A stretch of 64,000 bases of DNA from positions 62,001 to 126,000 of the forward strand of contig WHTJ01000001.1 in NCBI GenBank assembly GCA_009377795.1, read 5' to 3'. This stretch comes from Propionibacteriales bacterium. GTDB taxonomy: Bacteria; Actinomycetota; Actinomycetes; Propionibacteriales; Nocardioidaceae. Shown in pieces: positions 1,829 to 45,521 of the stretch. The notes below the pieces were generated by a model. The model saw only the letters and a list, made by a program, of their open reading frames with translations, had not been told where the DNA came from and ran no database searches. A program made the position numbers and the translations under genes. The number at the start of each line of letters is the position of its first letter. Within the stretch, counting starts at the first letter, position 1.

Positions 1829-1851
1829 CCAGATCTGCAATCTCGGCGCGA
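1829..1851 (-). repeat. Interspersed palindromic-repeat arm (single arm)
   Basis: Read on the minus strand this is TCGCGCCGAGATTGC, then AGA, then TCTGG. The same 23-base arm, with only the middle triplet changed, occurs at 4390, 4450 (reverse), 34308, 45461 and 45521 (reverse). Here only one arm is present and no pairing partner is found nearby. It lies in the znuA-glyS divergent gap, about 100 bases before the glyS start. Confidence 0.85.
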
Positions 1852-1949
1852 GGAGGTAACCTGGCCTCTCGATCAGCGCTCGCAGAAGGGCCTCCCGCCC
1901 CGGACGCGGCCGCGCAAACCGCCGACACCCAGCCGGATGGAGTGATTCC

Positions 1950-3344
1950 GTGGCCACGAGCACGGCCCCACTGGAAAACGTCATCAACCTCTGCAAGCGC
2001 CGGGGGTTCGTCTTCCCCTGTGGAGAAATCTACGGCGGCACCCGGTCCGCATGGGACTACGGACCTCACGGCGTCGAGCTCAAGGAGAACGTCAAGCGCC
2101 AATGGTGGCGCTCGATGGTGCAGAACCGCGACGACATCGTGGGGCTCGACTCCTCGGTGATCCTGCCGACCGCCGTGTGGCAGGCATCGGGTCACGTCGA
2201 GCAATTCGTCGACCCGCTGGTCGAGTGCCAGTCGTGCCACCGGCGGTTCCGTGAGGACCACCTCCAGGAGGAGTACGCCGAGCGCAAGGGCATCGCCGAC
2301 CCGTCCTCGGTGTCCCTGGACGCCGTAGCCTGCCCGCACTGCGGAACCAAGCACGCGTGGACGGCGCCCCGGATGTTCAACGCACTGCTGAGGACGTTCC
2401 TCGGTCCGGTCGAGAGCGAGGAGGGGCTGCACTACCTGCGCCCCGAGACCGCGCAGGGGATCTTCATCAACTTCCTCAACGTCATGAACTCCGCGCGCAA
2501 GAAGCCGCCGTTCGGCATCGGCCAGATCGGGAAGTCGTTCCGCAACGAGATCACGCCGGGGAACTTCATCTTCCGGACCCGCGAGTTCGAGCAGATGGAG
2601 ATGGAGTTCTTCGTCGAGCCGGGTACCGACGAGGAGTGGCACAAGACGTGGATCGACGTGCGTACGGACTGGTACGTCGACCTCGGCATCAGCCCCGACA
2701 ACCTGCGGCACTACGAGCACCCGAAAGAGAAGCTGTCGCACTACTCCAAGCGGACTGTCGACATCGAGTACCGCTACGGGTTCACCGGATCCGAGTGGGG
2801 CGAGCTCGAGGGCATCGCCAACCGCACCGACTTCGACCTGTCCACGCATGCCGAGCATTCCGGCGCCGACCTGTCGTACTTCGACCAGGAGAAGGGCGAG
2901 CGCTGGACGCCGTACGTCATCGAGCCCGCGGCCGGCGTCAACCGGTCGATGATGGCCTTCCTGATCGACGCGTACGCCGAGGACGAGGCGCCGAACGCCA
3001 AGGGCGGGGTCGACAAGCGGACCCTGCTGCGGCTGGACCCGCGCCTGGCCCCGGTGAAGGTGGCGGTGCTGCCGCTGTCCCGTAACGCCGACCTCACGCC
3101 TAAGGCGAAGGAGCTGTCGAGCACGCTGCGCACGTCCTGGAACGTCGACTTCGACGACGCCGGCGCCATCGGCCGGCGGTACCGCCGGCACGACGAGATC
3201 GGCACACCGTACTGCGTGACCGTCGACTTCGACACCCTGGACGACCATGCCGTCACGGTGCGGGAGCGGGACTCCATGAAGCAGGAACGCATCTCGATCG
3301 ACCATGTGCACGCGTATCTGGCTACCCGGCTGGTCGGCTGCTGA
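1950..3344 (+). CDS. glyS: Glycyl-tRNA synthetase (alpha2 type)
   Basis: This cytoplasmic enzyme charges tRNA-Gly with glycine. The 464-residue protein is the eukaryote/archaea-like alpha2 form typical of Gram-positives. It opens with [21 protein letters not shown], carries zinc-type cysteines in CQSCHRRF and CPHCGTKH, class II motif 2 in [25 protein letters not shown] split across the 170-195 region, and motif 3 around [11 protein letters not shown]. The C-terminal third ([12 protein letters not shown] onward, with ATRLVGC at the end) is the anticodon-binding domain. The start is GTG at 1950. The gene is transcribed away from znuA and ends convergently, overlapping the next minus-strand gene by about 23 bases. 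No T-box leader was recognised. Confidence 0.96.
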
Positions 3345-3717
3345 CGTCCAGGGAGACCAGCATCGCCGACTGCGGTGCTCCGTCGCCGTCGATCGCGGTC
3401 AGCGGGGTGACCGACACCTGGTCGCCGAGCTCGGGAACCTCCGAGTGGGGCGCGACCCAGAAGCGGTCGCAGAACCGCATCTCCGAGTCGTCCGGCCGGA
3501 CGCACATGATGGTGTCGTTGTCGGCGAACTCGACCACCTCGCCGACGAAGGGCTCCGGGCTCGCGGGTACGGCGGACCCCGGATCGGGGAACACATAGCG
3601 CCCCAACGCGACCCCTCCGGCGAGTATCAGGACGGCGAGCACTCCGAGCCCGATGACCGGTAGCCGACCTGTCCGCCTCTCCGCACTATGGCTGCCGCGA
3701 TGACGCGACCTTGCCAT
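3322..3717 (-). CDS. Small membrane-anchored protein of unknown function
   Basis: I do not recognise this 131-residue protein. It starts [20 protein letters not shown], then has one membrane segment ([19 protein letters not shown], about residues 19-38) preceded by many positive charges, so the N-terminus is probably inside and the remaining 90 residues outside. The outer part has two cysteines (IMCVRPDD and RFCDRFWV) spaced about 10 residues apart that could form a disulfide. The ATG at 3717 has a good AAGGAG ribosome binding site nine bases upstream, which decides the start over longer upstream frames. It converges on glyS with a small overlap. Confidence 0.75.
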
Positions 3718-3766
3718 AGGGACTCCTTCACGCTCGCGGGGTGACAGAAACTCTACGCTTAGGAAG

Positions 3767-43818: not shown

Positions 43819-45075
43819 TCAGACGGAGCGGAAGGCCAGCGCGACGTTGTGGCCGCCGAACCCGAACGAGTTGTTGAGGGCACCGAGGGTGCCGTCGGGC
43901 AGCTTGCGGGGCTCGGTCGCGATGTCGAGGGTGACCTGTTCGTCGAGGTTGTCGATGTTGATGGTGGGCGGCACGATCCGGTGGTACAGCGCGAGGATCG
44001 TGGCGACCGACTCGATCGCCCCGGCCGCGCCGAGCATGTGTCCGGTCATCGACTTGGTCGAGGTGAGTACGACGTCCCCGGCCGCCTCGCCGAGCGCGGT
44101 GTTGATCGCCAGGGCCTCGGCCACGTCGCCCTGCGGGGTCGAGGTGGCGTGCGCGTTGATGTGCTGGATGTCGCCGGTCGACAGCCCGGCCTCGGCGAGC
44201 GCCCGGCGCATCGCGCGGGTGGCGCCCATACCGGCGGGGTCCGGCTGGGCGATGTCGTGCGAGTCGGCGGTGACGCCGGCTCCGGCGGCCTCGGCGTACA
44301 CCTTCGCGCCCCGCTTCTCGGCATGCTCGGCGGACTCGAGTACGACCACCGCCGCGCCCTCGCCGAGCACGAACCCGTCGCGGTCGCGGTCCCACGGCCG
44401 GGACGCCCGCCCCGGCTCGTCGTTCCGCTTCGACAGCGCCATCATCTGAGCGAACGCGGCCATGGGAAGGGGGTGTACGGCGGCCTCGGTGCCACCGGCC
44501 ACCACGACGTCGGCCCGGCCGAGCCGGATCATGTCGATGCCGTGCGCGATCGCCTCGTTTCCGGAGGCGCACGCCGAGACCGGGGTGTGCACGCCGGACT
44601 TCGCCCCGAGGGCCAGACTGACCGCGGCCGCCGGCCCGTTCGGCATCAGCATCGGCACCGCCAGCGGGGACACCCGGCGCGGACCCTTCTGCACCAGCGC
44701 GTCGTAGTTGGCCAGCAGGGTGATGACGCCGCCGATGCCGGAGGCGATCGCGACGCCCAGCCGCTCACTGAGCGGATCGTTCCCAGCCTCGACGTCCGTG
44801 CCGGCCAGTCCGCAGTCGGCCCAGGCCTCGAGCGCCGCCACCATGGCGAACTGGCCGGTGCGGTCCAGCCGCCGGGCCTTCACCCGTTCGAGGATCTCGG
44901 TGGGTTCGACGGCCGCCAGGCCCGCGATGCGTACGCTCAGCTGCTCCGCCCAGTCCTCGGTCAGGGCGGAGACCCCCGGCGTACCCGCAAGCATCGCGTC
45001 CCACGTCGACGGCACGTCTCCGCCGAGTGGGCTGGTGGCGCCGAGCCCGGTCACGACAACATGTGGTTTGCTCAT
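43819..45075 (-). CDS. fabF: Beta-ketoacyl-ACP synthase II
   Basis: A 418-residue condensing enzyme that extends acyl chains with malonyl-ACP. The nucleophilic Cys is in TPVSACASGNEAIA, and the two His are in INAHATSTPQGD and STKSMTGHMLGAAGA; PPTINIDNLD and NNSFGFGGHNV complete the family set. GGAG precedes the ATG at 45075. Part of the fasR-fabD-fabH-acpP-fabF-accD run. Confidence 0.97.
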   Translation of the reverse strand: MSKPHVVVTGLGATSPLGGDVPSTWDAMLAGTPGVSALTEDWAEQLSVRIAGLAAVEPTEILERVKARRLDRTGQFAMVAALEAWADCGLAGTDVEAGNDPLSERLGVAIASGIGGVITLLANYDALVQKGPRRVSPLAVPMLMPNGPAAAVSLALGAKSGVHTPVSACASGNEAIAHGIDMIRLGRADVVVAGGTEAAVHPLPMAAFAQMMALSKRNDEPGRASRPWDRDRDGFVLGEGAAVVVLESAEHAEKRGAKVYAEAAGAGVTADSHDIAQPDPAGMGATRAMRRALAEAGLSTGDIQHINAHATSTPQGDVAEALAINTALGEAAGDVVLTSTKSMTGHMLGAAGAIESVATILALYHRIVPPTINIDNLDEQVTLDIATEPRKLPDGTLGALNNSFGFGGHNVALAFRSV

Positions 45076-45177
45076 CTGTGGCGTCTCCTTCCTCCGGGTT
45101 CATCGCGTCCGGCGAGTGCGGCCGGCGGTCACGCATCCGCGGGACGCGACGAGAGAGCGGTATGGCGCGACGGTCGG

Positions 45178-45423
45178 TCAGGAGCCGGACCGCTCGATGT
45201 AGGCCACGGCGTCGCCGACCGTCTTGAGGTTCTTGACCTCCTCGTCGGGGATCTTGACGCTGAACTTCTCCTCGGCCGCCACCACCACCTCGACCATCGA
45301 CAGCGAGTCGACGTCCAGGTCATCGGTGAACGACTTGTCGAGCTGGACGTCGTCGGCCGGGATACCGGCAACCTCGTTGACGATCTCGGCGAGGCTGGAA
45401 CGGATCTCCTCGGTGCTTGCCAT
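45178..45423 (-). CDS. acpP: Acyl carrier protein
   Basis: An 81-residue protein carrying the growing acyl chain on a phosphopantetheine attached to the Ser in DLDVDSLSMVEVV. It has the usual helical pattern MASTEEIRSSLAEIVNEVAG ... FSVKIPDEEVKNLKTVGDAVAYIE. AGGAGAG precedes the ATG. Lies between fabH and fabF, with the palindromic repeat in the fabH-acpP gap. Confidence 0.97.
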   Translation of the reverse strand: MASTEEIRSSLAEIVNEVAGIPADDVQLDKSFTDDLDVDSLSMVEVVVAAEEKFSVKIPDEEVKNLKTVGDAVAYIERSGS

Positions 45424-45460
45424 GTGCTGCTCTCCTTTTGTTTGGGTTGGGCTTACTTTT

Positions 45461-45521
45461 TCGCGCCGAGATTGCACATCTGGTCGATCCGAGATCGACC
45501 AGATGTGCAATCTCGGCGCGA
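45461..45521. repeat. Interspersed palindromic repeat, complete hairpin form
   Basis: Left arm 45461-45483 and right arm 45499-45521 each read TCGCGCCGAGATTGC, then ACA, then TCTGG. Pairing extends inward (TCGATC/GATCGA) to give a 29-base perfect stem with a 3-base loop (CGA). It lies in the 106-base gap between fabH and acpP, so it would form in the operon mRNA and could attenuate or stabilise the downstream genes. Confidence 0.92.

Follow-up and report, generated by a model that had tools for sequence, protein, structure and literature searches.

Repetitive extragenic palindromic (REP) elements, as the main text of PMC3733652 describes them, are high-copy repeats that occur as singles and dimers, lie mainly in convergent and unidirectional gaps, at less than 20 bp from the 3' ends of genes in the two families plotted there, and have some copies translated inside genes. 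The tagged REP elements treated in that text come mainly from gamma- and alpha-Proteobacteria, and the word Actinobacteria is absent from it. REP-associated tyrosine transposases (RAYTs) are presented, in the part of PMC2817692 dealing with them, as obligately associated with the REPs studied, and a GTAG-type head is described. Rickettsia palindromic elements (RPEs) are about 150 bp long and nearly half of them lie inside genes, according to the relevant part of PMC10969869; RPE-4 and RPE-6 of R. conorii are assigned to the CGTC class in the corresponding part of PMC3733652. In this study, we analyzed a palindromic repeat from a 64,000-nucleotide stretch of a Propionibacteriales bacterium (assembly GCA_009377795.1, contig WHTJ01000001.1, positions 62,001 to 126,000 of the forward strand; hereafter the window), in which six arms occur at four loci. 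These arms and their counterparts elsewhere in the genome probably represent a high-copy mobile repeat resembling REPs and bacterial interspersed mosaic elements (BIMEs), inserted mostly past stop codons in the sense direction. The copy number, the modular anatomy, the proximity to stop codons with its orientation, the excess of matched arms, the insert-free relatives, and the open reading frames are established by the observations below.

The source assembly (G000) comprises 4.58 Mb in 182 contigs and is 96.8% complete. Pattern counts were made genome-wide, and about 17% of the genome was read as a detailed sample of 747,179 bases (the window and 38 further stretches, cited by L numbers); outside the sample, the evidence consists of pattern counts alone. 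With up to three mismatches, 457 arms were counted (219 and 238 on the two strands), and the reversed pattern gave none, which bears out the original prediction of a high-copy interspersed palindromic family. In the sample, 236 candidates had at most three core mismatches; 160 were kept, either for having at most one core mismatch or for a fitting downstream block, and 76 were dropped. The kept arms, which retain a few likely chance matches (e.g., L255:855 and L217:2807), form 87 elements. Genes were called approximately, with a simple codon-based caller trained on G000 and also applied to a second repeat-rich genome, G009. The names dusB, fabH, acpP, and glyS are presumptive, assigned either by us or by the reader who made the original prediction.

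Each arm consists of the core TCGCGCCGAGATTGC, which is free of mismatch in 121 of the 160 sampled arms, followed by six variable bases and then mostly by GG, C or T, and CG. A variable triplet had been predicted between constant parts; the triplet is real and is the same in both arms of the two complete window elements, but it is only the start of a six-base block. This block mostly has the form A/G, C/G, A/T, A/T, C/G, T, and is ACATCT in 58 arms, ACTTCT in 14, AGAAGT in 13, AGATCT in 13, and others in the remainder. The oddest feature of the family is that the block varies mostly by A/T or C/G swaps, whereas transitions predominate in the decay of the core. Relative to the commonest block, changes at its four inner positions comprised 137 class-keeping swaps (A/T or C/G), 15 transitions, and 27 other transversions, as against 14, 36, and 3, respectively, in the core. 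Fisher's test of class-keeping changes versus transitions gave p values of about 1e-16 by arms and about 1e-5 by distinct blocks, which are guide values, the copies being non-independent. The step TA was seen in none of 143 blocks in the sample versus 5.6 expected; a copy with TA at L295:3987 indicates that the avoidance is not absolute. By arrangement, the 87 elements are 29 simple inward pairs, 33 single arms, and 25 others (direct tandems or outward pairs), with direct tandems measuring about 32 bp and paired elements 50-61 bp.

The arms are largely confined to the gaps between genes: 147 of 160 are intergenic, though 88% of the sample was called coding, and 13 are genic. Their density is highest in convergent gaps (50 arms per 12.6 kb), followed by tandem (86 per 51.2 kb) and divergent gaps (11 per 20.8 kb). 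Three arms have no gene boundary behind them. The other 157 divide into 104 whose nearest boundary on that side is a 3' end, at most 30 bases away in 57 of them, and 53 whose nearest boundary is a 5' end, at most 30 bases away in 7. Of the 74 elements adjoining a 3' end, 49 have the stop within 20 bases, whereas 5000 runs of random placement in the same gaps gave a mean of 27.6 and a maximum of 39. Restricted to tandem gaps with 100 or more free bases, the count was 13 of 31 elements, against a random mean of 2.8 and a maximum of 10. Among the 22 one-directional elements in tandem gaps, 16 are in sense. Furthermore, the five bases before the core are 71-92% pyrimidine, versus 46-62% in the 20 bases after arm-free stops. 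The usual site is a few bases past a stop codon. As a separate observation, the element at L255:1198-1248 lies 7 bases past the stop of a gene judged by eye to be release-factor-like and may supply the GTG start called for prmC, which has a PrmC_N domain.

Some copies nevertheless lie inside reading frames. In a gene that we take to be FdrA-like (L227, complement of 3-1829; Pfam finds a CoA-ligase domain), a 50-bp element is in frame between two conserved parts, and in 13 of 13 loci compared (35 other genomes gave matches) the linker carries no element and is a net 11-14 residues shorter. A second element joins this frame to the next gene. Two arms with purine-rich flanks add about 30-35 residues to the product of a biotin-carboxylase gene (L297, complement of 238-2400), in the turn before FFFLEMNTR. 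The insert is missing from all 14 loci compared (11 distinct genes, possibly with paralogues among them), which are 30-35 residues shorter. In the 60 solved relatives listed, out of 76, the best-matching stretch stops at carboxylase residue 302-307, just ahead of the insert; in the two whose alignments were examined, both without the insert, the match resumes at 339-341. In a dehydrogenase operon, the FAD and iron-sulphur subunits stand in one frame through a 50-bp element, and the fused frame carries the domains FAD_binding_5, CO_deh_flav_C, Fer2, and Fer2_2, whereas the two parts occupy different frames in 10 of 10 relatives examined. In L295, a likely membrane protein seems to be lengthened at its C terminus by tandem arms. 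L295 and L297 were chosen via encoded-peptide matches and were excluded from the estimate of genic frequency. The genic inserts are read in differing frames and strands, and no encoded peptide is conserved among them. Of 38 inward elements, 32 are stop-free in six frames and the other 6 in five, whereas 25% of length-matched random stretches drawn from the sample are stop-free in six. The prediction of an in-frame, RPE-like element therefore stands insofar as coding insertions exist, more clearly in these genes than in dusB; as the main character of a family with 147 of 160 arms intergenic, it does not. Elsewhere in L227, at 12880-13010, a run of 12-base GAGGGGGCGCGC repeats divides a hydantoinase B gene between two frames; the run starts in an arm-like core without a variable block.

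The source genome was placed among Nocardioidaceae and other Propionibacteriales, from which its best-matching named dusB loci come, with at most 81% protein identity over the best segment. Among 341 genomes of the family, many copies were found only in G000 (404 matches) and in G009 (84 matches), which belongs to a second genus. A further 118 genomes had one to three matches; the same few strings recur among the matches listed, suggesting that they lie in conserved genes and are not repeats. When 245 genomes were drawn from across the order, G009 not among them, G000 alone had more than one exact match. The elements of G009 have the diverged core TCGCGCCGAGGTTGC, and 32-base tandems are common there, some facing each other. 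In 214 kb around the known matches of G009, a 3' end adjoins 23 of 28 placed elements, 11 of these 23 being within 20 bases of it, and none of the 28 lies inside a called gene; two more are at contig edges. In a third genus, one genome (G108) has one two-unit tandem directly past a TGA. The exact core is absent from all 80 dusB loci of named genomes. A phage origin found no support: of 97 viral-contig stretches with the 15-base core, 2 had the right block form and none had a second arm at the spacings of the family.

In the window, the six arms were confirmed as exact matches at every predicted position and strand, whereas 100 dinucleotide shuffles gave 0.02 arms on average and never more than 1. 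A single arm with the block AGATCT (1829-1851, minus strand) lies in the divergent gap between the genes at 795-1751 (minus) and 1950-3344 (plus), and is one of the 7 elements of the sample in divergent gaps. Another single arm, with the block ATTTCT (34308-34330, plus strand, in sense), starts 14 bases past a TGA stop with a pyrimidine tract ahead. The two complete elements are 61-bp palindromes whose arms carry the identical triplet, and the paired stems of the window span 24-29 bp. In one, the left arm (4390-4412, plus strand, block GCTTCT) starts 11 bases past the stop of the upstream gene at 3767-4378, and the right arm (4428-4450, minus strand) is an exact match with the same block; the element folds at -58.9 kcal/mol (z -8.8). 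By eye, CATC flanks it on both sides; a test of flanks showed no general duplication. The other complete element, with arms at 45461-45483 (plus strand, block ACATCT) and 45499-45521 (minus strand), lies in the gap between the minus-strand genes at 45178-45423 and 45530-46534, named acpP and fabH by the reader, and its second arm is 8 bases past the stop of the gene at 45530-46534. Its stem is perfect over 29 bp and closes on a 3-base loop (-59.5 kcal/mol, z -12.3), in agreement with the stem predicted for this gap. At gathering thresholds, an Rfam search of the window gave 3 tRNAs only.

The element at 4390-4450 was also predicted to be translated in frame at the start of dusB. The dusB frame (4375-5565, plus strand) has two possible in-frame starts: ATG 4375, which overlaps the upstream stop (ATGA) and lies ahead of the element, 41 residues before APMAGV, and GTG 4474. 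In dusB relatives, most candidate starts lie about 16-27 residues before APMAGV (23 frames among 80 related loci, with unannotated starts). A start at GTG 4474, the one preferred by the gene caller, would drop the conserved RLGGLT. The frame from ATG 4375 is open through the element, and translation through it is likely, with GTG 4474 as the alternative; the predicted tryptic peptide for DusB is DCASGPGAPAQK.

We also searched for a gene that could mobilize the repeat. Regarding a RAYT flanked by arms, a Y1_Tnp search gave one split copy in G000 and one in G009, with no good arm match in the surrounding sequence examined. Both belong to an IS605-like tnpA/tnpB pair (L330:3617-5420, C26 of G000; L331, C33 of G009), 79% identical over 1783 aligned positions. 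The ends of this element bear the hairpin CCCCGGACTTCAGTCCGGGG, half of which has 0 matches in the 747-kb sample. A Y1 transposase match occurs in only 2 of 61 family genomes examined, namely the repeat-rich G000 and G009, an overlap with a chance of about 5e-4 if random, noticed after the fact; G108 (two arms, 77% complete) has no Y1 match. We treat this co-occurrence as a lead, given that the hairpins of the element are unlike the arm and no good arm match lies nearby. A reverse transcriptase (RT) was rejected as a shared mobilizer: one match with an internal stop was obtained in G000 and none in G009 or G108. IS110 gave 6 matches in G000 and 6 in G009. One IS110 of G009 (L316) has arms downstream, with only 260 bases covered on its other side; at one IS110 locus of G000 (L323), two weak 3-mismatch strings, one per side and without the block, were taken for chance. 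In addition, the sample holds 21 intervals between neighboring elements, 7 of which are single genes within 4 kb. Six of these single genes were scanned and none encodes a transposase: five belong to ordinary host families (LytB, MerR with glyoxalase, enoyl-CoA hydratase, aldo/keto reductase, and TPM domain), and the sixth lacks any Pfam match. Nor was an autonomous relative bearing these ends seen in the roughly 17% of the genome read, and genome-wide searches covered the Y1, RT, IS110, and TnpB families.

Other repeats were noticed in the same sample. Another palindromic repeat, some 66 bp long and with the arm GAGTGTGACGTTTTCG, occurs at L222:17384-17449, L224:1855-1920, and L226:17671-17729 (10 sample matches, reversed 0). 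A longer repeat consisting of TTTGCTCGTCGAACCG and its flanks (8 sample matches) stands beside or near arms at L253:8439-8594, L258:7319-7425, L260:19443-19510, and L263:3294-3484. A further one around CCGTTTCCCGACCCAAT is found at 42242-42306 of the window, L219:10027-10097, L261:4797-4827, and L269:6072-6140 (12 sample matches, reversed 0).

Taken together, these findings suggest the following model. The building unit would be a directional arm some 26 bases long, which occurs alone, in inward or outward pairs, or in direct tandems of about 32 bases. Copies would move and insert mostly just past stop codons in sense, presumably by a route without target duplication. Where arms face each other, the transcript would end in or cross a long hairpin, and the likely effect would be on mRNA 3' ends, as proposed for REP: transcription might terminate in both directions where genes converge, the 3' end might be protected, or ribosomes might be slowed at the stop codon. 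Because paired elements are usually stop-free in all six frames, insertion at a gene junction or in a protein turn could also yield a translated copy.

The matching of paired arms has more than one possible cause. Counting inward neighbors at distances of 34-36 and 44-48 only, the block is common to both arms in 25 of 38 pairs, whereas 10,000 shuffles gave a mean of 8.8 and a maximum of 18. Paired arms had been predicted to share the triplet; they do so well above shuffling, but not universally, with 13 of 38 pairs mismatched, 8 of them in the class with a spacing of 35 bases. G-U pairing was tried for the mismatched pairs and dropped, since L222:429 gives G-U in the sense strand and the similar L264:5621 gives A-C (by eye). 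Rather than by selection for pairing, the matching may have been made by replication, through template switching that perfects near-palindromes, an explanation compatible with a mobile REP-like repeat and one that we regard as possible rather than probable. It suits the strong matching in the 44-47 class (16 of 21), the weaker matching in the 35 class (9 of 17), which is without a loop and could thereby hinder correction, and the same block in 9 of 26 direct neighbors 29-34 bases apart; it leaves unexplained that A/T and C/G swaps are seen in single and tandem arms too.

The sense orientation, the spacing past stops, the excess in convergent gaps, and the long stems would also suit a lineage-specific terminator or 3'-end signal that evolved in place, was kept by selection, and is immobile. 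We consider this unlikely, since the FdrA-like and biotin-carboxylase insertions are missing in the relatives examined, many copies exist in only 2 of 341 family genomes, and the folded single arms make no hairpin. Similarly improbable is a miniature inverted-repeat transposable element (MITE) of a conventional DDE insertion sequence with terminal inverted repeats. The inverted arms, the short center, the high copy number, and the other repeat families in the same sample would be expected of a MITE; however, no duplication signal of 2-6, 8, or 9 bases was detected in 40 inward elements, the arms are also single, in direct tandem, or outward, unlike terminal repeats, and no transposase was found in the 6 between-element genes scanned. 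Known uptake sequences are common inside genes. A genome-wide recognition motif for DNA uptake or packaging, with inverted pairs doubling as hairpins, would account for a short, oriented core that recurs hundreds of times and is exact in 121 of 160 sampled arms, but it is very improbable in view of the strong avoidance of genes (13 of 160 arms), the 32-base tandems, and the insertion of whole units with flanking bases.

Several observations weigh against the mobile REP-like repeat that we favor. Of the 22 one-directional elements in tandem gaps, 6 are antisense. Folding of the window's two single arms was no better than that of shuffled sequences (z 0.06 and -0.38), and a short downstream partner stem (at most one mismatch) was found in only 6 of 42 one-directional elements. 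Because the window's single arms do not fold, a hairpin function cannot account for the 33 of 87 elements that are single arms. In the two complete window elements, neither strand has a U-run (T-run in the DNA) after the stem; they therefore do not have the form of an intrinsic terminator with a U-run, although they may be terminators of a kind that lacks one. The only Y1 transposase of G000 is broken across two frames in an element that ends in a different hairpin, and its contig, searched over its whole 5,959 bases, has one weak (3-mismatch) core-like string only. No target duplication stood out over cross-paired flanks in 40 inward elements for lengths of 2-6, 8, and 9 at offsets of 0-13. 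Lastly, no genome of the same genus was among the 341 family genomes, and hence there is no strain-level empty site.

A more specific version of the REP-like reading, which we regard as rather doubtful, is that the arm is the binding and cutting site of a dedicated DNA-acting, non-RAYT enzyme, possibly an IS605-type TnpA acting in trans. Such an enzyme would read the core exactly and the block by A/T-C/G class, as a minor-groove reader, and would place copies in sense behind stops, making this a new REP-like system that remodels host proteins by in-frame insertion and fusion. The class-keeping block beside an exact core hints at how the acting protein may read DNA, and the insert in the carboxylase turn and the subunit fusion are natural tests of repeats lengthening or fusing proteins.

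Among known systems, IS200/IS605 elements, like the non-autonomous elements derived from them, have hairpin ends and make no target duplication. The repeat resembles them in its hairpins and in showing no detectable target duplication, and a tnpA/tnpB pair is present in both repeat-rich genomes; in contrast, the ends of that pair carry CCCCGGACTTCAGTCCGGGG and not the arm, and the tnpA of G000 is split over two frames. The likeness to RPEs lies in palindromic insertion in frame into unrelated genes (the FdrA-like gene, the dehydrogenase fusion, and the biotin carboxylase), open for translation, whereas the pairs in G000 are 50-61 bp long, 13 of 160 arms are genic, no peptide is conserved, and no CGTC tag is present. 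The closest likeness is to REP and BIME elements. A survey of titles and abstract starts of the open-access literature gave no description of this family, whether sought by its core or as a REP- or MITE-like repeat of Actinobacteria or Nocardioides. Neither GTAG nor CGTC is a conserved tetranucleotide in the 20 positions before or the 45 after the core across 160 arms, no Y1 transposase bounded by arms was found, and the 32-base direct tandems and the class-keeping variable block are further differences from REP and BIME. Moreover, where a REP unit is itself a hairpin, in G000 the inward pairs fold and the two window single arms, the only singles folded, do not. As in REP and BIME, however, the arms of G000 are high-copy, mainly intergenic, near 3' ends, few in divergent gaps, and in some copies translated. 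Because no tag and no bounded RAYT were found, we regard the repeat as a new REP-like family in Propionibacteriales, an untagged variant rather than a member of the tagged REP families. An untagged actinobacterial family that sits at gene ends, and for which no partner gene was found, suggests that this niche was occupied repeatedly and that selection or insertion favors the placement and not the sequence.

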